In this document: positions 2,252 through 35,550 of the stretch, in pieces | Numbering within the stretch: position 1 is the stretch's first letter | How the letters are laid out: each line of letters begins with the position of its first letter | NCBI GenBank assembly: GCA_025356865.1 | Contig: JANXQJ010000037.1 | Location: forward strand, 1 to 36,377 | Length of the DNA: 36,377 bases | Reading direction: 5' to 3' | Source: Deltaproteobacteria bacterium | Lineage (GTDB): Bacteria > Desulfobacterota > Deferrimicrobia > Deferrimicrobiales > Deferrimicrobiaceae | Translations under genes and position numbers: made by a program | The notes under the pieces: model-generated | What the model saw: only the letters and a program-made list of their open reading frames with translations | Told to the model about the DNA's origin: nothing | The model's database searches: none

Positions 2252-2327
<76 letters not shown>

Positions 2328-2374: not shown

Positions 2375-2403
2375 GCGCCGGATCCGATGCCATGCTTCAG
2401 CAT

Positions 2404-2431
2404 TAAAGTTTGCCGCTCCGCAGGCCGATAA
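2404..2431 (+). promoter_or_regulatory. Putative sigma-28 (FliA) promoter upstream of the MCP
   Basis: TAAAGTTT (2404-2411), 12 nt, GCCGATAA (2424-2431); matches the FliA consensus TAAAGTTT-N11-GCCGATAA except for one extra spacer base. Confidence 0.75.
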
Positions 2432-2475
2432 ATCGAGAAGGGTGAAATCAGATCGACTGGCAAAGGGGTGACGAC

Positions 2476-4089: not shown

Positions 4090-4111
4090 GATCTCCCCGA
4101 CCCGGCCCGGG

Positions 4112-5741: not shown

Positions 5742-5859
5742 CGATTCCTTTATACATTTTTTGGGGGGCAAATAAAACACCGCTTTTTCCGGTTTGCCGG
5801 CGGCTCCGTCTGGTGTACTCTTTCGAGGAGTGGGGAGACATCGGAGGAACACGATCGAC

Positions 5860-7404: not shown

Positions 7405-7412
7405 GAAACCCG

Positions 7413-9095
7413 ATGACCTCACGCCGACTCCCGATTCTCCTTGCCGCCGCGCTGGCGCTGCTCGCCTGCGTTGCGGCGTCGTCCATCGAAGCCGCGGCGC
7501 CGGCGCCGAAATGGCTGGCCGGCTTTCCGCTCCGGGCCGGCGATTCCGTCATCCTGATGTGGACTCCGATTCCGGGCGCCACCGGGTACCGACTGTTTCG
7601 CCAGACGGGCGACGCGCCATTCAAGGCGATCTACAGCGGTCCTTCGAACACCTATAACGACACGTCCGCACCGCAATCCGACACCGTCACGTACAAGGTG
7701 GCCGGCATCGTGAAAGACGCCGACTCCGAGTTGTCGGCACCCGGCACCCTGAAAATGGTCGAGCAGCTTCGCCCCCCCTCTTTTACGGGCGCCATCGGCT
7801 CGGCCAGTTTCATCACGCTGCGCTGGTCCTCCCCCATCGGCGCGATTTTCTCCAATATCTACAGGGCCGAAAGCGAAACAGGGGACTATACCCTCCAGGA
7901 GTCGATCCAGTTCGAAACATACACGGACCGGAAGGCCGAACGCGGCAAGACCTATTTCTACCGGATCGCTTCCGTCGGGAAAGACGGCAAGGAATCTCCC
8001 CCTTCGGCAACGATCCAGGCGTCGCTGCGCGACGCACGGGCGGGCGTGGAGGCGGGCGGCGTGAAACCCGTAATCCGGAAACTGGCGGCGAAGGGATTCT
8101 TTCGGGGGGAAGAACTCTACGAACTCAACCAGCCCTCCTATGCAGGCTTCACCCGGGAAGGCGAGTTGTACGTCCTCGAGCGGCGCGGCCTCCAGTTCTT
8201 CGACCACGAAGGCGTCTACAAGCGGCGGATCGCGTTCGACAGGTCATGGGGGCTTCCCGGCGGACTGGTGCAGGAGGCGGATGGCCATTTCCTGGTCCCC
8301 TTCTACGCCGAACAGGTGGTGCGCCGGATCGACCCCCTGGGCAAGCCGGCGGCCGAGCTTCGCTATCCCCCTTATGTCGAGAAAAAAGGAACCGCCCCGA
8401 AAAAGCCGGTCACCCCGGCAGATCCGGGCGAGGTCGAATCGGCCGAAAAGAGCCTGGCGCGACTTCCCCTGTATCGCAACAACCCGAACCAGGTCGCGAT
8501 CGACGGAAACGGCTACCTCTGGATCCTCGACGGGGTTCGCGCGCAGGCGATCAAGATCAACGGGAAGGGCGAAGAAATCGCGGCGATCGGACGCCCCCCG
8601 GGCACCTTCGACGAGCGGAACATGACCGAGTCCGACCTGCCGACCGCCAAGGGAATCCAGTACAACCCGGTCGACGGCAAGCTCTACGTGATCCTGGGCG
8701 TCACGGCGCAAATCAAGGTGATCGACCCCGGGAAGGCCAAGGTCGTGGCCACTTTCGGCGGACTGGGCACGAGCACCGCCATGTTCCAGGGAATCGGCGG
8801 GCTGGCGTTCCGGAAGAACGGCAACATCCTGGTGCTCGACCACCTGATGCAGGCCATCAAGGAATTCAATCCGAAGTACGGCTATCTCGCCACTTACGTC
8901 GACGTGGTCGAGCGCGACACGATCAAGCTTTCGAGCAACCTCCTGTCCAGTTTCGCCTTCGATGAAGAAGACCAGCGGTTTTACATCTCCAGCACGATGG
9001 GCAACCGGGTCTACAAGTTCGACATCCTGCCGCCGGCTCCGGTCGTCCCGCCTCCGCCCCCGCCAAAACCTCAGCCGAAACTGATCTGGAAATAG
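7413..9095 (+). CDS. Secreted protein with two fibronectin type III-like domains and an NHL-like beta-propeller
   Basis: Signal peptide; DSVILMWTPIPGATGYRLFR and ASFITLRWSSP...NIYRA Fn3 patterns; PNQVAIDGNGYLWILDG, KGIQYNPVDGKLYVI, GIGGLAFRKNGNILVLDH NHL-like repeats; proline-rich C-terminus. Confidence 0.82.
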   Translation: MTSRRLPILLAAALALLACVAASSIEAAAPAPKWLAGFPLRAGDSVILMWTPIPGATGYRLFRQTGDAPFKAIYSGPSNTYNDTSAPQSDTVTYKVAGIVKDADSELSAPGTLKMVEQLRPPSFTGAIGSASFITLRWSSPIGAIFSNIYRAESETGDYTLQESIQFETYTDRKAERGKTYFYRIASVGKDGKESPPSATIQASLRDARAGVEAGGVKPVIRKLAAKGFFRGEELYELNQPSYAGFTREGELYVLERRGLQFFDHEGVYKRRIAFDRSWGLPGGLVQEADGHFLVPFYAEQVVRRIDPLGKPAAELRYPPYVEKKGTAPKKPVTPADPGEVESAEKSLARLPLYRNNPNQVAIDGNGYLWILDGVRAQAIKINGKGEEIAAIGRPPGTFDERNMTESDLPTAKGIQYNPVDGKLYVILGVTAQIKVIDPGKAKVVATFGGLGTSTAMFQGIGGLAFRKNGNILVLDHLMQAIKEFNPKYGYLATYVDVVERDTIKLSSNLLSSFAFDEEDQRFYISSTMGNRVYKFDILPPAPVVPPPPPPKPQPKLIWK

Positions 9096-9118
9096 CCCGC
9101 CCTTCCTGAAATGCGGGC
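9095..9118. repeat. Short inverted repeat between convergent genes, resembles the ends of the structured repeat
   Basis: GCCCGC-N12-GCGGGC; on the minus strand GCCCGCATTTC is identical to the first 11 nt of the 36240 repeat copy. Confidence 0.5.
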
Positions 9119-9126
9119 GAACCGCC

Positions 9127-9867
9127 CTACTTGACCTCGGCCGTGGCCGTCGGGTCGAACGGGTTTGTTCGCAGCGCCAGAGAAAACAGATAAGGGTAAT
9201 CCGCCTTCAGGTGGTGCATGTAGGCGAGCCAGTCGGACGCCATCAAGGTGTAGGCACGCTTGACGTCGTTGGCCAGGTGCGCGGCATCGGCGCCGGCCGG
9301 CCGGTATCCGGGCGCCCGGTGCGCCAGTTCCTCGACCAGGTGGAACACGGCCCAGAGCAGGTCGGTGAAGGTGTCGTGTTCCAGCAGGTTCGGATTGGTG
9401 AGCAACCCCAGCAGGAATGCGCGTTTTTCGAGCAGGAACCCGCGCAAGGCGTCCATTTCGGAGAGCGCGCAGTCGACGGCATAGGGATGCCCCTCGAGCG
9501 CAGCGGCGAGGCGGGCGAAATCCTGCTCGCTCCACGAGCGTCCGTCCCGGAGCGATTGCCTGAGCGTCTCCGCATCACGGTCGAATTTCGTGAACAGTTC
9601 GAGGAGGCAGGTTCCCGCCTCGGTGTAGAACACGCCGATCACCATGTTGAGTTTCTTGAGCAGGACCGCCTTCTCCCGCTTCCGCATCATGGTGTCGAGC
9701 ATCAACGTTGCGAAGAGGACGTAGACCGGCAGGAATGCAAGGTTGCCCACCAGTCCCTGGCAGACGGTTTTCGCATCGCCGAACAACGCGTACTGGACCA
9801 GGTAAAGCAGGGCGGACGCGGCTGCCAAAGCGCCACCCATGATGAACTGCCAGCGCCGCCCGTTCAT
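9127..9867 (-). CDS. Conserved-type two-TM membrane protein of unknown function
   Basis: Two N-terminal TM segments followed by a soluble helical region; ATGA overlap with the upstream ydcF-like gene. Confidence 0.75.
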   Translation of the reverse strand: MNGRRWQFIMGGALAAASALLYLVQYALFGDAKTVCQGLVGNLAFLPVYVLFATLMLDTMMRKREKAVLLKKLNMVIGVFYTEAGTCLLELFTKFDRDAETLRQSLRDGRSWSEQDFARLAAALEGHPYAVDCALSEMDALRGFLLEKRAFLLGLLTNPNLLEHDTFTDLLWAVFHLVEELAHRAPGYRPAGADAAHLANDVKRAYTLMASDWLAYMHHLKADYPYLFSLALRTNPFDPTATAEVK

Positions 9868-10652
9868 ATCGTCTTTTCTCCTTTGATCGCCGCCCCCGAC
9901 CCGCGCAGCGTCAGCCGGTACCATCCGTAGCCCATATATTCCTTCAGCGCCATCGCGGTGGCATTCAGGCCCGAAGCGGTCGGCAGGTACTCCTGCCACC
10001 CGTACACCTTGCCCGGCCAGCTCCGGAACGACGACGGATAGGGCAGGACCTCGATGCCCTCGTATTCGAACAGGTATCGGGCACGCCGCATGTGAAAGGC
10101 CGAGGTGACGAGGATCGCCTTGCGGATCGACGACCGTTCCATCAGGGTTCGGGTGAAGGCGGCGTTTTCCCGTGTATCCCGGCTCTTCTCCTCGACGGCG
10201 ATCCGGCCGGCCGGAACACCCAGGTCGACGAGGAATCGGCGGATGATGGGCGCTTCGGGAGCGCCGTCCTTGAAAGGCGTTCCGCCGGAGACGATCAGGG
10301 GAAGCCCGGTGCGCTTCTGGAGGCGCGCGGCGGTCACGAGGCGGGGCATCATCTCCCCCGACGGCGCACCGATGCCGCTCGCATCGGGCGCACCGGACGC
10401 AACGCCGCCGCCGAGCAGGACGATCGCGCCGTCCTTCGGATCGGCGGGAATCGTCAGCCCTTTTTCGAGGTCGGCCATCAGCCGGTCGGGGACAGGTGTC
10501 GCTGAGAGCGCCCACAGGACGCCCGAGAGGAGCAGGGCGACGAAGCCGTTCACCCGGTTCCGGTTCCGCATCAGGCGGACCCCAAGAAACGCCAGGAGCA
10601 GGATGAAGATTCCGGGCGGGAGAATCATTTCGACGAGAAGGTATTTCAGCAT
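9864..10652 (-). CDS. YdcF/ElyC family protein (DUF218)
   Basis: DGAIVLLGGGVASG, LPLIVSGGTPF, EEKSRDTRENA, ILVTSAFHMRRARYLFE motifs. Confidence 0.9.
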   Translation of the reverse strand: MLKYLLVEMILPPGIFILLLAFLGVRLMRNRNRVNGFVALLLSGVLWALSATPVPDRLMADLEKGLTIPADPKDGAIVLLGGGVASGAPDASGIGAPSGEMMPRLVTAARLQKRTGLPLIVSGGTPFKDGAPEAPIIRRFLVDLGVPAGRIAVEEKSRDTRENAAFTRTLMERSSIRKAILVTSAFHMRRARYLFEYEGIEVLPYPSSFRSWPGKVYGWQEYLPTASGLNATAMALKEYMGYGWYRLTLRGSGAAIKGEKTI

Positions 10653-10660
10653 GCGGTCGA

Positions 10661-11170
10661 TTACACGCAACCCTTGCGGCGGAACAGGTCGGTCTTGAGG
10701 GAGGTGACGCGGTCGAGGAAGAGGAGTCCGTCGAGGTGGTCCATCTCGTGCTGGAGCACGACCGCCTCGAAACCGGTCGATTCGATGATGACCTGTTCGC
10801 CGTTCCGGTCGAGCGCATCGACCAATACCCACTGGGCACGCCGGACGTTGGCCGTGTAGTCGGGAACGCTCATGCACCCCTCGCGGATTATCTGGCTGCC
10901 GCCCATCGCAAGGACCTCGGGGTTGACGAGCACCAGCAGCCCGTGGTTTTCCTGCCGGCTCCCCTTTTTGTGCTGCGAGACATCGGCGATCACGACGCGC
11001 TCGGTCCAGCCGACCTGGGGGGCCGCGATGCCGACGCCGCCGGGCATGGCGCGCATCGTTTCGAGCAGGTCGTCGACTCGGGCCGACAACTCGCTCGAAA
11101 ACCGCTGGACCTTTCGGGCGGGCTCCTTGAGCACGGGGTCCGGGAATTTCAGGATGGGGAGGATCGCCAT
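10661..11170 (-). CDS. def: Peptide deformylase
   Basis: GVGIAAPQVG, EGCMSVPD, VVLQHEMDHLDGLLFLDR: the three deformylase motifs. Confidence 0.97.
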   Translation of the reverse strand: MAILPILKFPDPVLKEPARKVQRFSSELSARVDDLLETMRAMPGGVGIAAPQVGWTERVVIADVSQHKKGSRQENHGLLVLVNPEVLAMGGSQIIREGCMSVPDYTANVRRAQWVLVDALDRNGEQVIIESTGFEAVVLQHEMDHLDGLLFLDRVTSLKTDLFRRKGCV

Positions 11171-11187
11171 GGGCCGGTCGGGCGCTC

Positions 11188-11733
11188 CTAGAGTTCCAGC
11201 GTCTCGATCGGGCGGATCGAGATGGAGACGTGCAGTTCCTTGCGCAGCGATTCGAGCTCGGCTTCAAGCCCCGGCATATCGAAGTCGTCCGGGATGTCGG
11301 CCTCGATGATCATCACGTAGACCGGCCGTTCCTTAGACCCCACGACCTGCGTGTTGAGGTCGGTCACGTTGACGTTCCGGTTGGCCAGTTCCTGCGTCAC
11401 GCGGCAAACGATGCCCGGGCGGTCTGCGCCGTAGACCGAGAGGATGTGCGGCGAACCCCGGAACCCCTTCTCGCGCGAGAGGTCTCCGTCGTCCACCGGG
11501 TTGACCGACACCATCAGCCCCATCCCGGAACGCACGCCCGCAAACGCCCTGTCGAGGGCCTCGACCGAGGAAACACCCGGAAAGCCGACCACGAGGAGCA
11601 TCGCGAATTGCCCGGAAAGAATGGTGCTGCTCGAGTCCTCGATGTTGCACCCGAGTTCGAACAGGATCCGGCTGATGCCGGCGACGATGCCGGGCCGGTC
11701 GCGCCCCACCACGCTCACAGAAAAAAAGCCCAT
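11188..11733 (-). CDS. Tandem ACT-domain protein (GcvR-like)
   Basis: VVGRDRPGIVAGISRILFELGCNIEDSS and VYGADRPGIVCRVTQELANRNVNVTDL. Confidence 0.88.
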   Translation of the reverse strand: MGFFSVSVVGRDRPGIVAGISRILFELGCNIEDSSSTILSGQFAMLLVVGFPGVSSVEALDRAFAGVRSGMGLMVSVNPVDDGDLSREKGFRGSPHILSVYGADRPGIVCRVTQELANRNVNVTDLNTQVVGSKERPVYVMIIEADIPDDFDMPGLEAELESLRKELHVSISIRPIETLEL

Positions 11734-11815
11734 CGCCTGCCCCTCCCCCCGGTCAAACCTGTCTTTCGATGATATCACGCGGGCATCGACGCCCTCCACC
11801 CCGTACCAGGCGCCT

Positions 11816-12514
11816 TTACCGGTCGAGGGGCGAGGTGAACGCGGCGGCGTCGAGGATCTTGATGCGCTTTCCCTGGACGCGGATGGCGCCGTCGTCCTGC
11901 AGTTTCTTGAGGGTTCTGGAGAACGTTTCGGGGACGGTTCCGAGACGGGACGCCAGCAGCGTCTTGCTGAAGGCCAGTTCGTAGACCGCGCCGTCGGCGA
12001 CGGGGATGCCGCGGGCGCGAAGTTCTTCGGAGACGAACCAGGTGAAGCGCGTCCCGACGTCCTTGAGGGCGAGGTCGTCGACCAGGTCGGTCATCCGCCG
12101 CAGCCACCTGGAGAGCGCGGCGAGCATCCGGATGGCGAGGCGCGGGCACTTTTCGAGCAGCGAGACGACGCCCAGCCGGGGCAGGAAGATCAGCTCGGCG
12201 TCGGTGACCGTCGACGCGTGGGCCGGATAGGCGCCGCCTTCGAAGATCACCCCTTCCGCGAAAGACTGGCCCGGTTCGAGCAGGTGGAGCACCTGCTCCT
12301 TCCCCTCGGCCGACAGTTTGAATACCTTGGCCTTTCCGGACGCCACGACGTAGAAGCCGTCGGCCCGGTCCCCTTCACGGAAGATCGTCTCGTTGCGGGA
12401 GAAACGGCGCAGCGACGCCACGGCCGCAACCTGCGCGAGGTCTTCGGGGGGAAGGCCCGAAAAAAGCGGTGCGGCGCGAAGCGCCACGGCCAGGTCGATT
12501 GTCGGGGTCACCAC
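11816..12514 (-). CDS. Crp/Fnr family transcriptional regulator
   Basis: cNMP-binding fold (FREGDRADGFYVVASGKAKVFKLSAEGKEQVLHLLEPGQSFAEG) and C-terminal HTH (LASRLGTVPETFSRTLKKLQDDGAI). Confidence 0.92.
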   Translation of the reverse strand: MVTPTIDLAVALRAAPLFSGLPPEDLAQVAAVASLRRFSRNETIFREGDRADGFYVVASGKAKVFKLSAEGKEQVLHLLEPGQSFAEGVIFEGGAYPAHASTVTDAELIFLPRLGVVSLLEKCPRLAIRMLAALSRWLRRMTDLVDDLALKDVGTRFTWFVSEELRARGIPVADGAVYELAFSKTLLASRLGTVPETFSRTLKKLQDDGAIRVQGKRIKILDAAAFTSPLDR

Positions 12515-12527
12515 GTGCGACGGACCG

Positions 12528-13043
12528 CTATTTTACGGTGTAGGAAAACTTTGCGGCCGCCTTCTGCTTGCCCGAGGCGAACTCGATCTGGACAGAGTAC
12601 TCGCCGGCCTTCTGCAGGTCGATGTCCGCAAGGAACGGACCGCCGACCTGCTGCAACTCGGACTTGGCCTTCTTCTTGTCGGGGCCGGTCACCGTAGCCG
12701 TCGCCGTTCCGGCGGTCACGCCCTTGCCGGTGCCGGGGTCGATGACGGAGAGCGACAGCATGTGGGTCGAGGGGACCCGGCCGTCCTTGTCGGCTTCCTT
12801 CATCTTGACGTTCATCTCGCGACGGTCCCGGATCTTGACCTGGCACCGCCACGGGCCGAAAGCGCCGCCGTGGACGCGTTCGCCCAGGGAACCCATGGCC
12901 GAGTGCTTCGGATTGGGGCTCACGTTGTCCTGTTGCACCGCCTTCAAGTCGAGAACCGTCTTGTCCTTCTTCTCCGCCGCCGTCGCAGCGCCTGCCAGCA
13001 GCAGGGACGCCAGCAGCAGGCCGGAGGCCGTTATCTTCATCAT
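12528..13043 (-). CDS. Periplasmic Ig/FixH-like protein, paralog of the upstream gene
   Basis: Signal peptide MMKITASGLLLASLLLAGAATAA; C-terminal KAGEYSVQIEFASGKQKAAAKFSYTVK parallels KPGKYAVKVEIASGKEKGSAAFSYTVK of 13112-13633. Confidence 0.8.
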   Translation of the reverse strand: MMKITASGLLLASLLLAGAATAAEKKDKTVLDLKAVQQDNVSPNPKHSAMGSLGERVHGGAFGPWRCQVKIRDRREMNVKMKEADKDGRVPSTHMLSLSVIDPGTGKGVTAGTATATVTGPDKKKAKSELQQVGGPFLADIDLQKAGEYSVQIEFASGKQKAAAKFSYTVK

Positions 13044-13111
13044 CCGTCGATCTCCCTTCGGGAAAGTCATGAAGAGAGGATACACGCCCTCCGGCCCGTT
13101 TGCCAACACGA

Positions 13112-13633
13112 CTACTTCACCGTGTACGAGAACGCGGCCGACCCCTTCTCCTTGCCCGAGGCGATTTCGACCTTGACCGCGTATTTCCCGGGTTTCGGGA
13201 GGTTGACGTCGACGCCGAAGTGCCCCTGCATGGCCATCAGGCCGCTCTTGACGGACTTCCGGTCCGGGCCCCTCACGGTCACTTCGCCGCTTCCATCGGT
13301 GACCGCCGCCTGCGTCTTCGCGTTCGTCAGGGCGATGGCGATGTGGTGCGAATTGGGCATCGGCCCTTCCGACTTCATGCCGCCCGGCATCGACTTCATG
13401 TGCGCCTTCATGTCCATCAGCCGAACCTTGGAAAGCCAGGGACCCATCTTGCCTTCGTAAACCTTGTCGCCCATCTTCATCATGTCGAGCGCGGGGGGCG
13501 CCCCGCCTCCGCCGTGCTGCATCCCCGGCATGCTTCCGTGGTCGGCCGCCCGGACCAGGCCCGGCGAGAGCGCCAGCGCCGACACGGCCAGGATCGCCGC
13601 CATGCTTCCTGCCACAATAATGCGTTTCATCAC
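13112..13633 (-). CDS. Met/His-rich periplasmic Ig/FixH-like protein, putative metal-associated
   Basis: Signal peptide; DHGSMPGMQHGGGG and MKAHMKSMPGGMKSEGPMPNSHH; downstream of cusA. Confidence 0.8.
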   Translation of the reverse strand: MMKRIIVAGSMAAILAVSALALSPGLVRAADHGSMPGMQHGGGGAPPALDMMKMGDKVYEGKMGPWLSKVRLMDMKAHMKSMPGGMKSEGPMPNSHHIAIALTNAKTQAAVTDGSGEVTVRGPDRKSVKSGLMAMQGHFGVDVNLPKPGKYAVKVEIASGKEKGSAAFSYTVK

Positions 13634-13666: not shown

Positions 13667-16600
13667 TCACGCTTCCGCCGGCGCGCCTTCCGACGGCAGT
13701 TCCCGTTTCTTCCAGAGTTTGTAGATCGCCGGATACACCAGCAGTTCGAGCAGGAACGACGTGACGAGCCCGCCGAGCATCGGGGCCGCGATCCGCTTCA
13801 TGACGTCGGCGCCCGCCGAGGTGGACCACATGATCGGCAACAGGCCCATGAACGCCGCAGCGACGGTCATCATCTTGGGGCGGACCCGCTTCACGGCGCC
13901 GTGGATGATGGCCTCGTCGAGTTCCGCGAGGTTCCGCAGCAGTCCCCGCTTCCGTGCGTCCTCGTACGACAGGTCGAGGAACAGCATCATGAATACGCCC
14001 GTTTCGGCATCGAGCCCCATGAGCGCGATCATCCCCACCCACGCGGCGATCGACACGTTGTACCCCAGGATGAAAAAGAGCCAGATCGCCCCGATGGCCG
14101 AGAAGGGGACGGCCAGCATGACGATCGACGCCTTGAACGCGCTGCGGGTGTTCATGTACAGCAGGACGAAGATCAGCGCCAGCGTCACCGGAACCACCAG
14201 TTTCAGGCGTTCCCGGACCCGGATCATGTTTTCGTACTGGCCGCTCCACTGGAGGACATACCCGGTCTTGAGCCGGATTCCGCTCGCCACGATCCGCTTC
14301 GCCTCCTCCACGTAGCTGCCCACGTCGCGCCCCGCGACGTCGACGTAGACGTAGCCGGCGAGGAACCCGTTCTCGTTGCGCAGCATCGAGGGGCCGTCGA
14401 CCAGCCTGATATCGGCGAGTTGCGCCAGCGGGACCTGCCGCCCCGCCCCGCCCGGGACGGAGACAAGCACCCGGCCCAGCCGGTCGGGGTCCTCGCGAAG
14501 TTCTCTCGGATAGCGGAGGTTCACGGGATACCGCTCCCGTCCCTCGATCGTCGTCGTGATGTTCTGGCCGCCGATCGCGCCCATGATCGTGTCCTGCAGT
14601 TTCTCGACCGTCAGGCCGTAGCGGGCGAGTTGCTCCCGCTTCGGCTCGATATCGACGAAGTAGCCGCCGGTGACCCGCTCGGCGAAAACGCTGCGGGTGC
14701 CCGGGACGTCGCGCAGGATCCGCTCGAGTTGCTCGCCGATCCGCTGGACCTCCTGGAGGTCGCTGCCGTAGACCTTGATCCCGACCGGCGTTCGCACGCC
14801 GGTGCTCAGCATGTCGATCCGCGCCTTGATCGGCATGGTCCAGGCGTTGGTGACGCCGGGAAAGCGGACCACGGAATCCATCTTCGCCACCAGTTCGTCC
14901 CACGAGATCCGGTCGGGCCATATGGGACGGAGCACGGGCTTGATGAAATTCGGCGTCCGCCTCGAATACCAGCGCTCCTTGGCGCTCCATTGATCCTGCG
15001 GTTTCAGGACCACCGTCGTCTCCATCATCGAGAAGGGGGCCGGATCGGTCGACGTGTCGGCGCGACCCGCCTTGCCGAAGACGCGCTCGACCTCGGGGAA
15101 ACCCTTCAGCGCCTGGTCCTGCCGGATCAGCAGGTCCTGCGCCTGCGCCACCGAGAGCCCGGGGAGCGTCGTCGGCATGTAGAGCATCGTCCCCTCGTTG
15201 AGCGGCGGCATGAACTCGCTCCCCAGCTTGAAGTAGACGGGGATGCTGAGCGCCACCATCGCGAGCGCGGCGGCGACGACGGTTTTCGGGCGGCGCAGCA
15301 CGAAGCGGCACGCCGGATCGTAGATCCGGAACAGGGTCCGGCTGATCGGGTGTTTCTCTTCCGCGTAGTACTTGCCGACGAGCGCCTGCGTCGCGAACCG
15401 GGCCAGGAACTTCGGCTTGAATACGAACGGGTCGACGCGGGCGAACATCATCCGCAGCGCGGGGTCGAGCGTGATCGCCAGGATCGCGGCCAGCCCCATC
15501 GCCAGGTTCTTGGAAATGGCCAGCGGCCTGAAGAGGCGCCCTTCCTGGTCCACCAGCACGAAGACCGGGATGAATGCGACGGCGATGACGAGGAGCGAGA
15601 AGAAGACGGAGGGGCCGACCTCCTTCAAGGCATCGAGCCGAACCTTGTGGAAGTCGCCGATCCGCCCCCCGGCCTCCCACAGGTGGATCTTGTTGTAGGC
15701 GTTCTCGACCTCGACGATCGCGCCGTCGACGAGGACGCCGATGGATATGGCGATCCCCGCGAGACTCATGATGTTGACTGTCACCCCCATGTAGTAGAGC
15801 GGGATGAACGAGAGGAGCACCGAGACGGGGATCGTGAGGATCGGCACCAGCGCGGAAGGGACATGCCACAGGAAGAGCAGGATCACCAGGGAGACGATGA
15901 CCATCTCGACCACGAGCTCGTGCCTGAGCGTCCCGATCGCGCGGTGGATGAGGTCGGAGCGGTCGTATGTGGGGACGAACGCGACCCCCTTGGGCAGCGA
16001 CGGTTCCAGTTCCTTCATCTTCGCCTTGACCCGGTCGATCACGTTGAGCGCGTTCTCGCCGTGGCGCATCACGACGATGCCGCCGACGTGGTCGCCGGTC
16101 CCGTCGAGGTCGGAGACGCCGCGCCGGATCTCGGGACCCAGGGCGACGCGCCCGATATCCTTGACCAGGACGGGAACGCCGCCGGGCGTGGCCTTCACCA
16201 CGATCTGCTCGAAATCCTCGATCTTCTTCGCGTACCCGCGCCCGCGGACCATGTACTCGGCGCCCGCGAACTCGATCAGCCGCCCGCCCACCTCGTTGTT
16301 GGACTCGCGGATCGCCGCGGTCACCGTCTCGAGCGGGATGCCGTACGCCGAGAGCCGGTTCGGGTCGACCGTCACCTGGTACTGCTTCTGGTAGCCCCCG
16401 ATCGACGCCACCTCGGCCACGCCCTGGACCGACTGGATCGCGTAGCGGAGCGTCCAGTCCTGGTACGAACGGAGTTGTTCGAGCGACTGCGCTCCGGACC
16501 TGTCGACCAGGGCGTACTGGTAGACCCAGCCGACGCCGGTCGCGTCGGGGCCCAGTTCGGTCTGCACCCCGCCGGGAAGGCGGGACTGGATCTTCGATAG

Positions 16601-16981
16601 GTATTCGAGGACGCGGGAACGCGCCCAGTAGATGTCGGTGCCGTCCTCGAAGATCACGTAGACGTACGAGAATCCGAAGTCGGAGAAGCCGCGAACCGCC
16701 TTGACGTGCGGAGCCCCCAGCAGTGCGGTGACGATCGGATAGGTCACCTGGTCTTCGATGATGTCGGGCGACCGGTCCCACTTCGAGTAGACGATGACCT
16801 GCGTGTCGGAGAGGTCGGGCAGGGCGTCGAGGCGGATCTCCTTCAGCGTGTAGAAGGCGAACAGGCACGCGGCGGCCACCGCGAGCAGCGTCAGGTAGCG
16901 GTTTTCGGCACAGAATCCGATTATCCGCTGGATGGCCGTTTCCCGGCCGGATTCGCCCGGCGCTCCGCCACTCGGGTTCAT
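13667..16981 (-). CDS. cusA: CusA/CzcA-type heavy-metal RND efflux pump, predicted Cu(I)/Ag(I)
   Basis: LDALPDLSDTQVIVYSKWDRSPDIIEDQVTYPIV; ERVFGKAGRADTSTDPAPFSMMETTVVLKPQDQW; RIDMLSTGVRTPVGIKV; about 1104 aa with RND TM pattern. Confidence 0.96.
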   Translation of the reverse strand: MNPSGGAPGESGRETAIQRIIGFCAENRYLTLLAVAAACLFAFYTLKEIRLDALPDLSDTQVIVYSKWDRSPDIIEDQVTYPIVTALLGAPHVKAVRGFSDFGFSYVYVIFEDGTDIYWARSRVLEYLSKIQSRLPGGVQTELGPDATGVGWVYQYALVDRSGAQSLEQLRSYQDWTLRYAIQSVQGVAEVASIGGYQKQYQVTVDPNRLSAYGIPLETVTAAIRESNNEVGGRLIEFAGAEYMVRGRGYAKKIEDFEQIVVKATPGGVPVLVKDIGRVALGPEIRRGVSDLDGTGDHVGGIVVMRHGENALNVIDRVKAKMKELEPSLPKGVAFVPTYDRSDLIHRAIGTLRHELVVEMVIVSLVILLFLWHVPSALVPILTIPVSVLLSFIPLYYMGVTVNIMSLAGIAISIGVLVDGAIVEVENAYNKIHLWEAGGRIGDFHKVRLDALKEVGPSVFFSLLVIAVAFIPVFVLVDQEGRLFRPLAISKNLAMGLAAILAITLDPALRMMFARVDPFVFKPKFLARFATQALVGKYYAEEKHPISRTLFRIYDPACRFVLRRPKTVVAAALAMVALSIPVYFKLGSEFMPPLNEGTMLYMPTTLPGLSVAQAQDLLIRQDQALKGFPEVERVFGKAGRADTSTDPAPFSMMETTVVLKPQDQWSAKERWYSRRTPNFIKPVLRPIWPDRISWDELVAKMDSVVRFPGVTNAWTMPIKARIDMLSTGVRTPVGIKVYGSDLQEVQRIGEQLERILRDVPGTRSVFAERVTGGYFVDIEPKREQLARYGLTVEKLQDTIMGAIGGQNITTTIEGRERYPVNLRYPRELREDPDRLGRVLVSVPGGAGRQVPLAQLADIRLVDGPSMLRNENGFLAGYVYVDVAGRDVGSYVEEAKRIVASGIRLKTGYVLQWSGQYENMIRVRERLKLVVPVTLALIFVLLYMNTRSAFKASIVMLAVPFSAIGAIWLFFILGYNVSIAAWVGMIALMGLDAETGVFMMLFLDLSYEDARKRGLLRNLAELDEAIIHGAVKRVRPKMMTVAAAFMGLLPIMWSTSAGADVMKRIAAPMLGGLVTSFLLELLVYPAIYKLWKKRELPSEGAPAEA

Positions 16982-18435
16982 TTGCCGCCCCCGGTCATCC
17001 GGACGAGGGCAGCGCGGAGCCGCGACTCGGAGTCGAGGAGGAAGTTTGCCTGCACCGCGACCCGCTCGCCCGCCTTGACCCCGGACAGGATCCGGGCGCG
17101 GCCGTCTCCGCGGACGCCCACCTGCACCTCTCGCGGCTCGAAACCGCCGTTCCCCCCGTCGACGAAGGCGACGTGGCGCAGGCCGCTCTCGATCAGGGCG
17201 GAGTCGGGGATGACGACGCCCGTCGACGGTGCGGCGTCGATCGATACGTCCGCATACATCTGCGGCTTGAGTTTCAGGCCCGGATTGGGAAACTCGAAGC
17301 GCACCTTCAGCGTGCGGCTTTCCGGGGAGAGCACCGGGTTGACGAACGCCACCCGGCCGCGAAGCGCCGCGCCCGGGACCGAGGGAAGCGAGACGGAAGC
17401 GCCTTGCCCGATCCGGATCGCCCGCGCTTCGTATTCGTAGAGGTCGGCCTCGATCCAGATGCGCGACAGGTCGGTCACGGTGAGCAGTTCCGTGCCCGGG
17501 CCGACGCGCGTCCCGTCGAAGACGTTCTTGCCGGTCACGTAGCCCGAGACCGGGGAGTCGAGCGTGACCGTACGCTGCGCCTTCCCCGTCCGCTCGAGCT
17601 GCACGATGAAGCTTTCCGGAACGTCGAACAGCTCCAGGCGGCGGCGCGACGACTGGAGCAGTTCGTCGCCCAGTTTCCGGACATCCTCGCTCGAGGACGC
17701 CGAGAACTTCGCGGCCGTCTCCCGCGCCTTCAGGAATTCCTGCTGCGAGGCGAGCAGCTCGGGAGAATAGAGGGAAAGGAGCGGCTGCCCCTTCGAGACA
17801 TGCTGCCCGGTGGCGTTGACGTAAAGTTTCTCGACGTAGCCGTCGATCTTGGCCTGGACGCGCCGGATGCGCGCCTCGTCCGGAACGACGATGCCCGACG
17901 CCCTCAGGGAACCGCCGATCGTCTCGCGCGTCGCGACGGCGGTGCGGACGCCGGCCATCCGCAGGCTCTCGGCGCCGACCTTGATGGTTGCGTACCCTTC
18001 GACCGGCGCGGCGCCTCCGGCTGTTCCGACCCCCTCGCCGGTCAGTTCGTCCTCGTAGACCGGGACGTATTCCATCCCCATCTCGTCCTTCGATGGAACC
18101 GGCGAATGGACCTTGGGATTCATCGGATTGCGGTAGAAGGCGATCTTCCGTTCGCCCTTCGCGGGTGCCGCAGGCAGCGGCGGAGCGGCGGCCGCGGGAA
18201 CGCCGCCCTCGATCTTCGTCAGCGTCATCCCGCAGATGGGGCAGTTGCCCGGCTTGTCGGAGATGATGAACGGGTGCATTCCGCATGTGTACTTCTCGGC
18301 CTGCGCCGCGACCGGAGCCTTGCCGTCCTTCGAGTGATCGTGGCCCGCGTGACGGGAATATTGCCAGAGGACGGCGCCGGCCCCCGCAACGACGATTCCG
18401 GCCAGGGCAATCAGGACGATCCTTGTTCTCGTCAT
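16978..18435 (-). CDS. cusB: CusB-type periplasmic adaptor with N-terminal heavy-metal-binding motifs
   Basis: YTCGMHPFIISDKPGNCPICGMTL and YRNPMNPKVHSPVPSKDEMGMEYVPVYEDE; adaptor core AKIDGYVEKLYV...VSKGQPLLSLYSPEL; ATGA overlaps at both ends. Confidence 0.95.
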   Translation of the reverse strand: MTRTRIVLIALAGIVVAGAGAVLWQYSRHAGHDHSKDGKAPVAAQAEKYTCGMHPFIISDKPGNCPICGMTLTKIEGGVPAAAAPPLPAAPAKGERKIAFYRNPMNPKVHSPVPSKDEMGMEYVPVYEDELTGEGVGTAGGAAPVEGYATIKVGAESLRMAGVRTAVATRETIGGSLRASGIVVPDEARIRRVQAKIDGYVEKLYVNATGQHVSKGQPLLSLYSPELLASQQEFLKARETAAKFSASSSEDVRKLGDELLQSSRRRLELFDVPESFIVQLERTGKAQRTVTLDSPVSGYVTGKNVFDGTRVGPGTELLTVTDLSRIWIEADLYEYEARAIRIGQGASVSLPSVPGAALRGRVAFVNPVLSPESRTLKVRFEFPNPGLKLKPQMYADVSIDAAPSTGVVIPDSALIESGLRHVAFVDGGNGGFEPREVQVGVRGDGRARILSGVKAGERVAVQANFLLDSESRLRAALVRMTGGGK

Positions 18436-21170
18436 TTGGTGCCTCCGGAGGAGATGCTCTTCCCGACTGCCGCATCGAGCGACGCCCACGCCACGCCGAT
18501 ATCGGCCCTGCTGCGGGCCAGCGCGAGATTCGCCTCGAACCACCCGCGGTACGACTCGATCAGGTCGGCGAACGGGACCTTCCCGGCGGAATAGCCGCGC
18601 GACGACGTCTCGAGCGCGCTTCGGGAAAGGACCACGACGCGTTCGCCGTAAAGCGCCTCTTCCCGCTTCGCCTTGTCGAGTTCGAACCAGGCGTTGCGGA
18701 CGCCCAGAAGCGTGGCGGCCTCTTCCATCCGGAGGTCGCTCTTCGCCGCCTCGATCCGCTCCCTCAGTTCCCGAAGCCAGGCCGCCTGCGTTCCGTACGC
18801 GGGCGCCTTCGGCAACCCTTCGCCGACGAACGAGGCGGTCGACGACGGGAAAGCCTCCTTCGCCTCACCCATGGCGCCCGCACCGACACGGGAGATCTCG
18901 TCCCGGTCGTACCGAGACAGGTTCAGGCTGAAGCCGGGGTTGATCATCGTTTCCTGCATCGCGAGCATCCGTTCCATCTTCCCGATCTCGGCGCGCATCG
19001 CCCGCAGCTCCTGCCGCCATTCCGACGCCATCGCCTCGAGGCCGCCGATCGCGGGGAGCGGCGTCGCGAGATTGTCGGCCGCCGGGAAACCGATCCGGAT
19101 CGATGGGGGAAGCGCGAGCCCCTCCCGGAGCAGGGCCTCCGCGTTCTTCCGCGCCTCGTCGAGCGTGCGCAGTTCTTCCCGCGCTTTCTCGCGCGCGACC
19201 CCGACCTTGAGGACGTCCTGGAAAGTGCCCGCCCCCGCGGAATAGCGGGCCGACACGGCGGAGTTGAAGCCATCGAGGAGGTCTATGACGAGCGAGGCGG
19301 TTTCGCGGGCGGACTGGACGTAGACCAGTTCCCGGAGCGCCTTCCGGACCGACGTGACGGCGTCGCGCCGCGCTGCTTCAAGCCGTTCGCGGGCCGCCGC
19401 GGCATCCATCGAGACGACCTGCCCCTTGAGGGCCAGCACCCCGGGGAAAGGGAATTTCGAGGCGGCCATCGCCTCCGGGCTCTCCATCGCGCCGACGCCG
19501 GTCATCAAGGATGAAGCAAAAGCGCTGTATCGCCGGAGGATCGTGTCGAGATTCTCGACCTGTCCGTACCCCTCGAGGACGGCGCGAAACTCGTGTTCCT
19601 TCGAGGCGACGCGCGGGTTGCGCAGGAGCGCCAGCGTCTCGAGGTCGTGGAGTGAAAAACCGTCCCCGAGCGCGTTGCCGGCCGCGGTGTTGTCCGTCGC
19701 GGCGTCCTTCAACCGGTCTTTACGTGCCGGATCCGGTGCGAGGAAGGCCGCCTCCGGCGTCGCGGTTTCGAGGGCATTTTCCCAACGCGCCGATGCCTCC
19801 CGCAGTTTCAGGACCTCCGCGTCGAACTCGTCCTTCACGGCTGGTGACGCAGGTGCGCCATCGGCCTCGGTCAGCTTTTTCCCGGCCAGCTTTTCGAGGC
19901 GGGCGAGCCACTTCCCGTAGTCGGCCTTCGCGCGAGCGAGCGAGAGCTGGAAGTTGTAGAAGGCGGACTGCGCCTCGAGATAGTCGCTGAAGGAGCCCTG
20001 CCGTTGCCGGTAAACCGTTTCCGCGCCCTCGATCGCCCGCAATGCCTGCGGGAGCAGGTCGTCCCGGTAGAGGACGACGAGCCGTCCGGCGTTCTGAAGC
20101 CTGAAATAGGTGTCGCTGACCATCGTCCGCGTCTCGTTCTGCTGCGCCTTCCTCATCGATTCCATCGTCTCGAGGTCGGCGCGGGCGGCGCCCAGGCGCC
20201 CCGAATTCTTCCCCCGCCAGATCGGGAGCGCCATCCCCACCTGGAAACCGACCTGGTCGTTCCCGTTCAGTTTGCCGCGGGAGAAGCCGACGTTGAACTC
20301 GGGAATATTTTCGTACCGGGTGAGCGACACCATCGATTGGGCCTTCTCGACGCCCGCCTGCGCGACCCGGTTCTCTTCGTAATTCGCCTCGGCGGCCGCC
20401 TGGATACCGGGCAGGTCGAACACGACCGGGAGAACGGGGATTTCGGAGAGCGGCCCGATGGCCGCATCCGCCGGCCGGTCGAGGAGTGCGTTGAGGCGGA
20501 CCTTCCCGGTCTTTTCCAGTTCGTCCAGGAGCAGCGCGTCGTAGAGCAGCTGTCCGGATTGCGCCTGCGCCTTCATCACGTCGAAGAGCGCCGCCCGGTT
20601 CGCCGCGTAGGCACCCTCGCCCGCCTTCCTGAGCCGGTCGAGCAGCTCGCGGTTCTGCGCCGCCACCCGCTTCGCGTCGCGCAGATAAAGCAGTTCGTGG
20701 TACGACTCGCGGATCGCGACCACCGTGTCCCGGACCGCCGCATCGAGGCGGATCCGCGCGATTCGCGATTCGGCCTTCGAGACGTCGCCGGCCTTTCCCA
20801 GTCTGCCCGGCAGCGGGATTCCCTGCGTCAGGCGGATGTTCCAGTCGTCGGGCCGTTCCCGGTCGCCGAACGTCTCGGTCATGTACATCCCCTCGAACAT
20901 GACTTCGGGGTTCGCCCAGGCGGTATCGACCCGGTACTGCTCGACGGTGGAACGCCAACGGGCGCGCGCCGCCTTCACCATCGGACTGGACAGGTACGCG
21001 TATGCGGAGAGATCGGAGAGTCCGGGTCCGGCGACGATCTTCCGTTCGAGCGCTTCCCGCTCCGCGTCACCCGACGCGGAAAGGGGGAGGCCGGACGCCG
21101 CCGGTCCCCCTGCGGCAGCAAGGATCAGCAGCAGGGCCGGGAGGAGGAAGCGCGCGCCTGGTCTTGTCAT
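18432..21170 (-). CDS. Double-length TolC/CusC-like outer membrane efflux protein (two complete OEP modules in one 912-aa chain)
   Basis: Signal peptide; module 1 about aa 45-450, module 2 about aa 490-905; each has paired OEP helical/strand repeats; one uninterrupted ORF overlapping cusB by ATGA. Confidence 0.88.
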   Translation of the reverse strand: MTRPGARFLLPALLLILAAAGGPAASGLPLSASGDAEREALERKIVAGPGLSDLSAYAYLSSPMVKAARARWRSTVEQYRVDTAWANPEVMFEGMYMTETFGDRERPDDWNIRLTQGIPLPGRLGKAGDVSKAESRIARIRLDAAVRDTVVAIRESYHELLYLRDAKRVAAQNRELLDRLRKAGEGAYAANRAALFDVMKAQAQSGQLLYDALLLDELEKTGKVRLNALLDRPADAAIGPLSEIPVLPVVFDLPGIQAAAEANYEENRVAQAGVEKAQSMVSLTRYENIPEFNVGFSRGKLNGNDQVGFQVGMALPIWRGKNSGRLGAARADLETMESMRKAQQNETRTMVSDTYFRLQNAGRLVVLYRDDLLPQALRAIEGAETVYRQRQGSFSDYLEAQSAFYNFQLSLARAKADYGKWLARLEKLAGKKLTEADGAPASPAVKDEFDAEVLKLREASARWENALETATPEAAFLAPDPARKDRLKDAATDNTAAGNALGDGFSLHDLETLALLRNPRVASKEHEFRAVLEGYGQVENLDTILRRYSAFASSLMTGVGAMESPEAMAASKFPFPGVLALKGQVVSMDAAAARERLEAARRDAVTSVRKALRELVYVQSARETASLVIDLLDGFNSAVSARYSAGAGTFQDVLKVGVAREKAREELRTLDEARKNAEALLREGLALPPSIRIGFPAADNLATPLPAIGGLEAMASEWRQELRAMRAEIGKMERMLAMQETMINPGFSLNLSRYDRDEISRVGAGAMGEAKEAFPSSTASFVGEGLPKAPAYGTQAAWLRELRERIEAAKSDLRMEEAATLLGVRNAWFELDKAKREEALYGERVVVLSRSALETSSRGYSAGKVPFADLIESYRGWFEANLALARSRADIGVAWASLDAAVGKSISSGGTK

Positions 21171-21394
21171 CTCCCCTCCCCGTGACCGCCTGCGTGACCG
21201 GCCGCCGGCCGGGTGGCCTGGTTATCGGAGGCCCGGCAGCCACCGCACATGCCGGACAGGCACCCGGAACCGCCCGCCCCGTGCCGGAACAGGCATTCGA
21301 GCGCGAGGGTGGTCAGCACGGAGAGAATCACCGCGACGACAATCGCGATCAGCCAGCTCCGCCATGACGGGGATCGTTCCCGCCTGTGTTCCAT
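21167..21394 (-). CDS. Small single-TM protein with Cys-rich tail
   Basis: 75 aa; TM WLIAIVVAVILSVLTTLALECLF then CLSGMCGGCRAS and His/Gly tail; ATGA overlap with the tolC-like gene. Confidence 0.7.
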   Translation of the reverse strand: MEHRRERSPSWRSWLIAIVVAVILSVLTTLALECLFRHGAGGSGCLSGMCGGCRASDNQATRPAAGHAGGHGEGR

Positions 21395-21397: not shown

Positions 21398-22132
21398 CTA
21401 GGTCCTCCGTTCCGGTGGGATCCCGCGACCCGCCTGGCCTGCGGGCCGGGCCGCCAGGAACCGGTCCTCGTCGACCCGTCCGTCGCGCAGGTGGATCGAC
21501 CGCGTTCCCCGTTCGACATTCGCCCGGTTGTGCGTCACCACCAGGATCGTCTTTCCCTGCCCGTGAAGCCGGGCAAACAGGTCGAGAATCTGGTCTCCCG
21601 TCCCGCTGTCGAGGTTCCCCGTCGGCTCGTCGGCGAGCAGGATCGGCGGATCGTGCACCAGCGCACGCGCGATGGCCACCCGCTGGCATTCACCGCCCGA
21701 GAGCTGCGACGGAAGCCGTTCCTCTTTCCCGGCCAGCCCGACGGACGCGAGGAGCGCATCGGCCCGTGCCCATTTCCCCGCGGCGGAACCCTTTTCCGGC
21801 GCCATCGGCACCATCACGTTTTCGCGGGCGGTCAGGTACGGCAGCAGGTGGTACGCCTGGAAGACGAAGCCGATCGTCTTCCCGCGGAAGTCGGCCAGCG
21901 CATCGGCGCGGAGGGTGGAGAGGTCGACCCCGTCGATCGTGATGCGCCCCCCGGTCGGGAGCTGCAATCCGCCCAGGATGCAGAGCAGCGTGCTCTTGCC
22001 CGCCCCCGACTCGCCGGTGATCACCGCATATTCGCCCCGGGCGATCGCGACGGAAACGCCGCGCAACGCGGTGGCGCTCGTTCCGTTCGACCCGTAGGTC
22101 ATCTCGAGTTCCTCGAGGGTGATGAACGACAT
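21398..22132 (-). CDS. ABC transporter ATP-binding protein (LolD/MacB type)
   Basis: Walker A GESGAGKST, signature LSGGECQRVAIARAL, Walker B ILLADEPTGNLD. Confidence 0.95.
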   Translation of the reverse strand: MSFITLEELEMTYGSNGTSATALRGVSVAIARGEYAVITGESGAGKSTLLCILGGLQLPTGGRITIDGVDLSTLRADALADFRGKTIGFVFQAYHLLPYLTARENVMVPMAPEKGSAAGKWARADALLASVGLAGKEERLPSQLSGGECQRVAIARALVHDPPILLADEPTGNLDSGTGDQILDLFARLHGQGKTILVVTHNRANVERGTRSIHLRDGRVDEDRFLAARPAGQAGRGIPPERRT

Positions 22133-22148
22133 TGTCCTTTATCTCCTT

Positions 22149-23300
22149 TTACAGGCTGCGGATCGCTTCGGTCGGCGAAAGTGCCGCCGCCCGCCTTGCC
22201 GGCGGGATCGTTCCGAGAAGCCCGAGCGATACCCCGAGCACCGTTCCCAGCGCCATGGCGCGCCACTCGACCGCGCCGCGCGCGATGCCGAAGAGCGGCG
22301 AGGCCGCGATCGCCGCGCCCGCGCCCGCCAGGGCTCCGGCAGCCGAGGCGGCAAGCGCGATCCAGCCCGTCTCCCAGAAAAGGAGCGACCGGATCGCCCG
22401 GCGGCGGAAGCCGACGGCGCGCAGGATGCCGATCTCGCGCGTCCGCTCCTGCACGTTGCCCATGATCGTGACGAACACCATCAGCCCGCCGATGCCGAGC
22501 ACGATCGCCGACACCCCGAGGCCGAGCCGCCGGAACTGGTCGACCGCCGCCTTCCGGCTCTCGACCACCGAGCGGATGGCCGATACCTTCGCGCCGGGCA
22601 TCTTCGCGCCGATCTCCCGGACGATATCCTCGATGGGACACTCGCGGCACAGCGCCGCCACCTCGAAGAAGGTGACGCCGTCCTTCACGCCGGCCAGTTC
22701 GCGGACGGCGGCGATATCGGCGATCACCATGCCGTCTTCCTTCTCTCCGGTCGGCTTCAGGATTCCCGCCACCCGGAACGTCCTTCCGCCCGACTCGAGG
22801 GTGCCGCCGGGGCCCTTGTCGAGCGCCGCCGCCGCCTCGAAGCCGAGGATGACGTCGTCCTTCCCCCCGATCTCCGCGCCGTCCACCTTCCACCAGGGTC
22901 GCGACTCGGCGAGATCGACGGGCCGCACCCCCATCCAGACCAGGTTTTTCCCGGAGGCGTCGGCCGCGGACAGGAACCAGGGAACCGCCAGCCGGATCCG
23001 CTCGCCGAGCGGGATCGACCGGATCGCCTGCTCGTCGGCCGCCGTCAGCCGGCCGTGCGACACCTGCGTGCCGCCCAGCGCGATGTCGCCGAACCCGAGC
23101 GAAAGCTGCTCGGTTCGAGGCGTGACCAGGATGTTGGCGCCGTACCGGTCGAGTTTGTCGCGCACCGCCCCTTCCATCTGCATCGTGATCGAGGAGATGG
23201 CGACGAAGGTGCCGATCCCCAGGAAGATGCCGAGCCCGGTGAAAACCGCCCGCGATTTCCGCCGGAGCAGGTTTTTCCGGGCCAAAGTCCGAATGTTCAT
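22149..23300 (-). CDS. FtsX/MacB-type ABC transporter permease
   Basis: N-terminal NLLRRKSRAVFTGLGIFLGIGTFVAI; three C-terminal TM helices; extracytoplasmic Cys motif CRECPIEDIV; terminal SPTEAIRSL. Confidence 0.93.
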   Translation of the reverse strand: MNIRTLARKNLLRRKSRAVFTGLGIFLGIGTFVAISSITMQMEGAVRDKLDRYGANILVTPRTEQLSLGFGDIALGGTQVSHGRLTAADEQAIRSIPLGERIRLAVPWFLSAADASGKNLVWMGVRPVDLAESRPWWKVDGAEIGGKDDVILGFEAAAALDKGPGGTLESGGRTFRVAGILKPTGEKEDGMVIADIAAVRELAGVKDGVTFFEVAALCRECPIEDIVREIGAKMPGAKVSAIRSVVESRKAAVDQFRRLGLGVSAIVLGIGGLMVFVTIMGNVQERTREIGILRAVGFRRRAIRSLLFWETGWIALAASAAGALAGAGAAIAASPLFGIARGAVEWRAMALGTVLGVSLGLLGTIPPARRAAALSPTEAIRSL

Positions 23301-23328
23301 CCGGTTGCCTCCAGGCGCTCCGCCCGAC

Positions 23329-23841
23329 TCAAGACGCCTTCCCGGGGAAGTAGCGCTTGCCGGCGAATATATCCGCCTTCTTGATGACGAGCGACTTCCC
23401 GGCCGCCGACGACGGGATGCCGTGCGGGTTGCAGCCGCCCTTCTTCTCGCCGATCTGGATCCCGGCGAACTTCATGTCGCAGTTGTTGCACACCATCTTG
23501 TCGTCCTCCTGCCGGTATCCCTTGCCGGAACGGTAGCAGGCGTCGCAGGCGTCGAGCGCCGCGCGGTACCGGCCGTCGGCGCTCTTGAGGGCGAAGTAGC
23601 GAAACTCGGTTCCCTCGTGCGCCAGGGAGAGGAAGAGCGCCTTGCCCGAATCGAGGGAAGCCAGCGGGATCCGGACCTCGTCGGCCGTCTCGACCACGCC
23701 CGCCGCCTTCGCCCGGTCGGCCGCGTTCTTCTTGAACACGTCCAGGACGCCGGCCCTCCCAGCTGAAGCCACGCCGATCATCAGCACCGCGCAAACCCCG
23801 ATCGCCGCCCATCCGCCGTACCGTCTTGAAGTTGCCACCAC
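23329..23841 (-). CDS. DUF2318-type periplasmic metal-binding protein
   Basis: DACDACYRSGKGYRQEDDKMVCNNCDMKFAGIQIGEKKGGCNPHGI; GTG(GTG) start preceded by GGGAGGAG SD. Confidence 0.85.
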   Translation of the reverse strand: MVATSRRYGGWAAIGVCAVLMIGVASAGRAGVLDVFKKNAADRAKAAGVVETADEVRIPLASLDSGKALFLSLAHEGTEFRYFALKSADGRYRAALDACDACYRSGKGYRQEDDKMVCNNCDMKFAGIQIGEKKGGCNPHGIPSSAAGKSLVIKKADIFAGKRYFPGKAS

Positions 23842-24011
23842 GTTCTCCTCCCGGTGTGACCGGCTCCGTCCGCACGACGCCGGTCCGTTTTCAGGTTGTG
23901 AGGTTGCACGGACCGCGCCAAGGCGAACCTTTGCCCGAAACAACCGGATAATCAGCGAGTTGGGAAAAGAAGGCCCGGAAAGCGCGACCGGGCGGGGGAG
24001 GTCCGGGAGAA

Positions 24012-24040
24012 GACTATTCTCCAGCCGCTGGAGAATAGTC
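24012..24040. promoter_or_regulatory. Perfect 13-bp inverted repeat with 3-nt centre in a divergent intergenic region; candidate operator
   Basis: GACTATTCTCCAG-CCG-CTGGAGAATAGTC. Confidence 0.65.
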
Positions 24041-24127
24041 GGCAATATGTGTTTTTCGATTATCTGTCGCGGATTTTGATATATCATTTCCGGTTGAGTA
24101 TGCCCTTCCCTTGATACAGGAGACTCC

Positions 24128-24937
24128 ATGAAGCGGTTCCTGCTACCCGTCGTCGCCTGCCTGCTCCTCTCACCCGCCCTCTCGGACGCGGGAGACTACC
24201 CCAGGGACGACATCCAGGTGTACGGAGTCCTCGAGCACATCGCGACGGCCGAAATGAACCCGACGACGAAAACCCAGCGCGGCCGCGACTGGGGATACGC
24301 CAAGGGATTCGGCATCGAGGCGACGCTCGAGGACGACTACCCCGAGTTGTGGCGCCCCCGCTTCGAGGTGACCACCGGCGACGTTTCCCACGAGGAAGCG
24401 GCGTTCGCGAAGGTCGTTTCCTCGAGCGCGTCCTTCGAACGGTTCCGCCTCGGGATCGACCACCTGTACCGTCTCCCCCTGAACGACCGGGTGGCCATCG
24501 AGCCCTTCTGGGGCGGCGAGGGGCAGTTCTTCCACCGCAGGGTCAGCGCGGGAAGCAACGGCGACGCCGAATTCGCCCGCTATGACGACTTCCGCTACGG
24601 CGTCTCCGCGCGGGCGGGGGCACGAATCGCCTTGAACGAACTCAAGGGCGTCCCGTACGACGAGGTGTCGGCCGCCCGTCCCGCCCGCACCTTCCACGCC
24701 GAGATCGGGGTAACCCTTCCGCTCTACTACGAGAACCGCCGGAAGACGTCCACCGGCCACCAGACCTCCCAGTCCGGCCGGTCGCCGGCCCTGTTCGTCG
24801 AAGCCGGAGGGAAGATCGGCAAGTTCCGCCCCGCCGTTTTCTACGAAGGGATCCGGTTCGGGTACCCGGACGGATTCCTGGGGCAGCCCCAGACTTCGAC
24901 CGACGTGTTCGGCGTCCGCCTCGGATACGCGTTTTGA
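24128..24937 (+). CDS. Outer membrane beta-barrel-like protein
   Basis: Signal peptide; alternating amphipathic strands; terminal TDVFGVRLGYAF ending in aromatic Phe. Confidence 0.75.
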   Translation: MKRFLLPVVACLLLSPALSDAGDYPRDDIQVYGVLEHIATAEMNPTTKTQRGRDWGYAKGFGIEATLEDDYPELWRPRFEVTTGDVSHEEAAFAKVVSSSASFERFRLGIDHLYRLPLNDRVAIEPFWGGEGQFFHRRVSAGSNGDAEFARYDDFRYGVSARAGARIALNELKGVPYDEVSAARPARTFHAEIGVTLPLYYENRRKTSTGHQTSQSGRSPALFVEAGGKIGKFRPAVFYEGIRFGYPDGFLGQPQTSTDVFGVRLGYAF

Positions 24938-30993: not shown

Positions 30994-31003
30994 CTCTTGC
31001 GGC

Positions 31004-33551: not shown

Positions 33552-33565
33552 CGAAAGCGCCCGCG

Positions 33566-34138: not shown

Positions 34139-34281
34139 GAAGCCCTCCCCCGCCGGCTCGCGGCCGGCACCGTCTCTCTGCTGTAATAGGGGCATTCTAG
34201 CGCAGATTCGCCCATTTCCGGAGACTGGGGGCACTACCCTGTGCTATTTTTCATGAGATACCCGCATGGAAAGGGACCACC

Positions 34282-35544: not shown

Positions 35545-35550
35545 GACGCC

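Follow-up and report, generated by a model that had tools for sequence, protein, structure and literature searches.

A natural gene fusion in a Cus-type efflux operon joins an outer-membrane factor to a paralogue predicted to lack a barrel

The stretch of DNA analysed here, positions 1 to 36,377 of contig JANXQJ010000037.1 (assembly GCA_025356865.1) from a Deltaproteobacteria bacterium of the family Deferrimicrobiaceae, hereafter the window, carries a gene in which two outer-membrane factors (OMFs) have become one polypeptide. The gene, at 18432–21170 on the reverse strand (like the protein features and the genes between 12528 and 24129 located below), arose by the natural fusion of a translationally coupled gene pair, which we call OEP1 and OEP2, from a Cus-type tripartite efflux operon. 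Its product probably represents the channel of a copper/silver pump covalently joined to a partner that has no barrel and stays free of the membrane.

The open reading frame starts with ATG and continues for 912 codons without an internal stop. The Pfam family OEP (PF02321) is matched four times along its length (3.5e-49 for the whole), and each half is recognized when scored alone, the first at 2.6e-39 (two stretches) and the second at 2.3e-12. In the genome search, the matches to the second half cover only profile positions 78–187 and 91–184 of 187, and the two halves are only ~25–28% alike. A single N-terminal signal peptide precedes both (residues 1 to ~28, 21087–21170), with a basic start, a hydrophobic core (LLPALLLILAAAGGPAASG) and a modelled helix at residues 5–19. 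It is followed by module 1 (residues 30–435, 19866–21083), a linker that contains no signal peptide (residues 436–490, 19701–19865) and module 2 (residues 491–905, 18456–19700). The initial annotation had drawn the same outline: one uninterrupted chain of 912 residues, one signal peptide ahead of both modules, and four OEP repeats with weak similarity between the halves. All of this is borne out, and the case of an OEP domain in one half only, which it had also considered, is contradicted by the score of the second half. Against the sequences of the PDB, phmmer returned no match to the whole fusion at 0.01; a profile of the OEP2 family matches VceC and TolC there.

What identifies the gene as a fusion is the comparison with its relatives. 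When 99 relatives were searched using the second half as query and their open reading frames were analysed, OEP1 and OEP2 proved to be separate, adjacent genes in all relatives that have them, and the same genome holds a second, unfused copy of the operon on contig C190 (identity 66% in OEP1, 69% in OEP2 and 87% in CusA). With a contig scan and a phylum sample added, 38 distinct full-length OEP2 genes were collected, all separate from OEP1 and all directly behind it wherever the available sequence extends upstream; the pair adjoins cusB-cusA wherever the contig extends that far. The two genes overlap by 4 nt (ATGA type) in ~20 of the 32 pairs measured and by 8 nt in three more. OEP2 in the relatives carries its own signal peptide; a cysteine occupies the expected cleavage site in ~10 of the 38, and the strict lipoprotein pattern is seen in only three. 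A phylum sample of 395 genomes, the class samples and the contig scan yielded no further fused homologue. Long open frames at the OEP2 genes of G219 and G261 were considered as fusions and rejected where examined (loci L067 and L075), OEP1 being a separate, closed gene.

Anchor distances, reading frame and alignment place the fusion point in the linker, where the relatives carry the stop codon of OEP1 along with the start and signal peptide of OEP2. From anchor to anchor, the junction measures 79 nt in the window versus 228 nt in C190, 264 nt in G001 and 294 nt in G002; the fused copy is thus shorter by 149–215 nt than these three congeneric copies, and its anchor distance differs modulo 3 from each of them. 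The deletion took out the stop codon of OEP1 together with the start, the signal peptide and ~40 residues of the mature N terminus of OEP2; what remains of the OEP2 N-terminal region (DEFDAEVLKLREASARWENAL) is conserved and reads in frame. In the relatives the two genes lie in different frames; the deletion in the window puts both in one frame. Because it removed stop, start and signal peptide and also changed the frame, read-through or a single-base error can be ruled out. The initial annotation had allowed for two separate genes with a missed stop between them: the homologues are indeed separate, but no stop was missed, as it is physically gone together with the second signal peptide and the frame has changed. 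An internal tandem duplication is likewise rejected by the separate genes in all relatives and by the ancient split between OEP1 and OEP2 in the tree described below. The gene is therefore not the tandem-duplicated TolC it was first taken for, but an old pair of separate genes joined in this copy.

But could the organism in fact have two genes like its relatives, with the fusion arising from assembly or sequencing? The fusion is a lone case among ~50 loci, the genome is a draft of 212 contigs, and a near paralogue, C190, is present in the same assembly. However, short-read errors typically concern single bases, whereas here at least 149 nt spanning stop, start and signal peptide are gone with the frame matched. 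The C190 paralogue is only ~72% alike in DNA at this place and hence too different for a collapsed repeat, and the rest of the OEP2 N-terminal region is kept in frame and conserved. We consider an artefact very improbable.

A tree of 89 sequences groups OEP2 into one clade with support of 100/100 and places OEP1 as its sister, save for one single-OMF sequence that falls inside and one that falls outside. The two halves of the window's gene take corresponding positions in their respective clades, OEP1 and OEP2, beside the copies of the genus. As judged from the sequences, the OEP1-OEP2 pair is ancient and its members move as a unit. Compared codon by codon, the fusion and the C190 paralogue gave ratios of nonsynonymous to synonymous substitution rates (dN/dS) of 0.28 for module 1, 0.24 for module 2 and 0.14 for CusA; the values for the two modules indicate that both halves are under purifying constraint. 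All 12 genomes sampled from the class to which G046 belongs contain OEP2; in the window's own class 3 of 26 genomes do, all from its genus. A lateral transfer of OEP2 into the window's genus is suggested.

The two modules differ in their predicted structures. AlphaFold was run on the whole fusion as a single chain with 41 alignment rows (mean predicted local distance difference test score, pLDDT, of 82; predicted template modelling score, pTM, of 0.51). In module 1, the model contains all four β-strands of an OMF (residues 89–94, 110–118, 291–301 and 304–314) plus the usual helices. In module 2 of the same model, the same helices appear with high confidence and strands are absent, the expected hairpin sites (residues 553–574 and 743–795) being modelled with low confidence. 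The separate model of an OEP2 orthologue, built from 38 rows, was likewise strandless. Within the fusion alignment, module 2 had 25 orthologue rows and module 1 had 15; since the strandless module had more rows, alignment depth does not explain the difference. Foldseek retrieved TolC, OprM, CusC and SilC at probability 1.00 with both the fusion model and the OEP2 orthologue model. Module 1 is thus predicted to be an ordinary, complete OMF protomer with two OEP repeats and four strands, while module 2, strandless in both models and a member of the single OEP2 clade, is predicted to have lost its β-barrel segments and kept a TolC-like helical body. The initial proposal of two complete efflux modules does not hold, since the second is predicted without barrel segments and covers the OEP profile only in part. 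The accompanying stoichiometry paradox, by which such a chain could not form the standard trimer without altered stoichiometry, disappears if only module 1 supplies barrel strands, because three chains can then build a 12-strand barrel from module 1 alone.

Closer to the initial annotation would be the view that module 2 still makes a shortened membrane barrel, the fusion then uniting two true channel protomers. Both halves are OEP homologues, repeat 2 of OEP2 retains one strand-like stretch, PGFSLNLSRY, and shallow alignments can mask strands. Yet a single run yielded four strands in module 1 from fewer rows and none in module 2. In addition, the first loop has shrunk to 32 residues in OEP2 versus ~41 in OEP1, and β-type alternation is lower in both loop segments of OEP2 (2.6 instead of 3.6, and 3.1 instead of 5.0). 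On this evidence a second barrel is improbable.

OEP2 is further set apart by its methionines. Seven conserved methionine columns (54–90% of rows) all lie within or beside the loops that replace the barrel: M556 and M562 in the first of these loops (19485–19505; each a Met in 79% of OEP2 rows), M732, M735, M738 and M742 on the helix leading into the second (18945–18977; 82, 90, 85 and 64%), and M767 in the second loop itself (18870–18872; 54%). OEP1 has two comparable columns, the start methionine excluded. At the canonical helix-tip motifs Y-x-x-G, OEP2 is well conserved (100% of rows for both Y643 and G646, 97% for Y860 and 95% for G863); tip 1 of OEP1 is without the motif glycine, mostly having D there.

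The operon itself speaks for a role in copper or silver export. The TGA stop of the fusion overlaps the ATG of cusB (CCAAATGACG, an ATGA overlap), confirming the coupling to cusB noted initially. The cusB gene (16978–18435) encodes an adaptor (HlyD_D23 2e-74) with an N-terminal heavy-metal-binding domain (HMBD 9e-12), and its end at 16978 overlaps the likely start, at 16981, of cusA (13667–16981), which encodes a pump of the resistance-nodulation-division (RND) superfamily (TIGR00914, 1053 bits). Its triad positions read MMM, aligned to M573, M623 and M672 of E. coli CusA, which form the Cu(I)/Ag(I) site. This triad is present in every linked OEP2 locus tested and in one single-OMF operon; a further RND pump in the same genome lacks it. 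Behind cusA follows a gene for a secreted Met/His-rich protein of 173 residues (13112–13633), probably part of the same operon, with similar DNA 3′ of cusA in C190 and G002. As judged from these genes, a copper/silver role of the operon is well supported, owing to the Met triad of CusA, the heavy-metal-binding domain of CusB and the Met/His-rich secreted protein.

How might such a chain work? We propose that the first modules of three chains form the usual 12-strand barrel in the outer membrane with its helical tunnel. Module 2, an ancient paralogue that would have lost its barrel but kept the helical body and the helix-tip motifs, would stay in the periplasm; in the fused chain, module 1 would take over from its own N terminus the task of tethering it to the outer membrane. 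There, module 2 would most likely form a second, membrane-free helical ring in fixed 1:1 ratio with the channel, in the simplest arrangement stacked beneath module 1 and facing CusB. At the end that would formerly have met the membrane, its clustered, conserved methionines may bind Cu(I)/Ag(I) or hand it on. Carried further, and only tentatively, this would define a class of deltaproteobacterial copper/silver RND pumps with a four-part conduit, in which the OEP1 channel continues into a methionine-lined periplasmic helical tunnel of OEP2 that docks on CusB, the fusion being this pair made permanent.

Instead of stacking below it, module 2 might pack beside module 1, either in a mixed six-module helical ring or as an outer collar, with module 1 as the sole source of the 12-strand barrel above. 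The fusion and the coupling, which set a 1:1 ratio, would suit this, as would the canonical tips of OEP2 next to the lost glycine in tip 1 of OEP1, as if the docking surface had been divided. However, in CusBA six CusB subunits sit on a trimer of CusA, to which a ring of twelve repeats would be mismatched, and contacts between the modules are unsupported at a pTM of 0.51. We regard this packing as rather unlikely, though less so than a second barrel.

Several points weigh against our preferred arrangement, a channel joined to a barrel-less periplasmic partner. The fused gene is a single case from a draft genome, and the strand-like stretch retained in repeat 2 fits poorly with complete loss of the barrel. 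The AlphaFold alignments are shallow (38–41 rows), and at the pTM given the model does not fix how the two halves lie to each other. A further helical tunnel stacked below the first would demand extra room in the periplasm, and the methionine row on the helix may be plain core packing.

Upstream of the fusion, its start is overlapped by a gene for a single-helix, Cys/His-rich protein of 75 residues (21167–21394), which contains CLSGMCGGC and a His-containing tail and had no match in a Pfam search. Beyond it lie genes for an ATP-binding cassette (ABC) ATPase of the MacB/LolD type (21398–22132; PF00005 9e-35), kept as a neighbour in C190, G001, G002, G046 and G081, for an FtsX/MacB-type permease (22149–23300; FtsX 6e-16, MacB_PCD 2e-12) and for an FtrD-like (DUF2318) protein of uncertain start (23329–24129; PF10080 1e-27). 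The same trio (21398–24129 in the window) precedes the OEP pair in several relatives as well, and it is possible that they form a second, ATP-driven exporter using the same outer-membrane part. On the other side of the operon, a secreted protein of 193 residues (12528–13109) is related to the 173-residue one, both matching one gene in G001. Two NRAMP-type metal transporters are encoded near the Cus operon (29092–31386 and 34282–35544), one of them fused to a universal stress domain.

The flanks of the window (1–13121 and 29111–36238) are colinear with one contig of G002 (C12, locus L098) at ~72–83% DNA identity, and the left 13.6 kb is without a second copy in G000 save for dispersed repeats and weaker paralogous matches. 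On these grounds we reject the idea of a contaminating contig and regard it as truly belonging to this genus. Between them, the window has the region from ~13.1 to 29.1 kb where G002 has only 3 kb of other sequence; the operon block is therefore an extra copy that was either gained here or lost in G002. The block, which carries the genome's second Cus operon, reads as a gained operon copy whose genes have diverged (CusA is 87% identical to that of C190). A dispersed repeat of ~180 bp whose ends are inverted (GCAGTTCCCGCCAC...GTGGCGGGAACTGC) occurs at 1330–1525 and 36236–36366; it has 39 matches in this genome and others in 9 of 19 other sampled relatives, frequently at the ends of contigs, and gave no match in an Rfam search.

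Finally, we would like to place the OEP1-OEP2 pair in the context of known efflux systems. In the literature on tripartite pumps, OMFs are trimers built from one kind of subunit; the constant pairing and the fusion suggest a two-protein outer-membrane side instead of this usual one-protein, three-copy view. The fusion is good evidence that OEP1 and OEP2 act together; the OEP2 partner family is in our view more interesting than the fusion itself. Searches of open-access papers turned up neither a barrel-less OMF paralogue, nor paired OMF genes with CusBA, nor an OMF fusion. As the fused gene sets a 1:1 ratio and offers a single-chain target for structural work, the question is directly testable. 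Module 1 resembles CusC and SilC in its OEP family, four strands, helical body and operon with CusB and a Met-triad CusA; those proteins, however, have one module of ~430 residues per chain, whereas the fusion adds a second without a barrel. Module 2, in turn, is like TolC and OprM in the helical body, matched at probability 1.00 by its orthologue, and in its tip motifs, but unlike them it is predicted strandless and has conserved methionines at the barrel site. A second, non-barrel protein beside an OMF is reminiscent of YbjP, the DUF3828 lipoprotein partner of E. coli TolC (PMC13082787), although YbjP is not an OEP homologue, whereas OEP2 is an OMF paralogue coupled or fused to OEP1. The closest parallel for two paralogous subunits serving one pump is MdtB and MdtC, which act together as a heterotrimer (PMC8277102); these are inner-membrane subunits, whereas the OEP pair belongs to the outer-membrane side, with one member predicted to have no membrane part at all.

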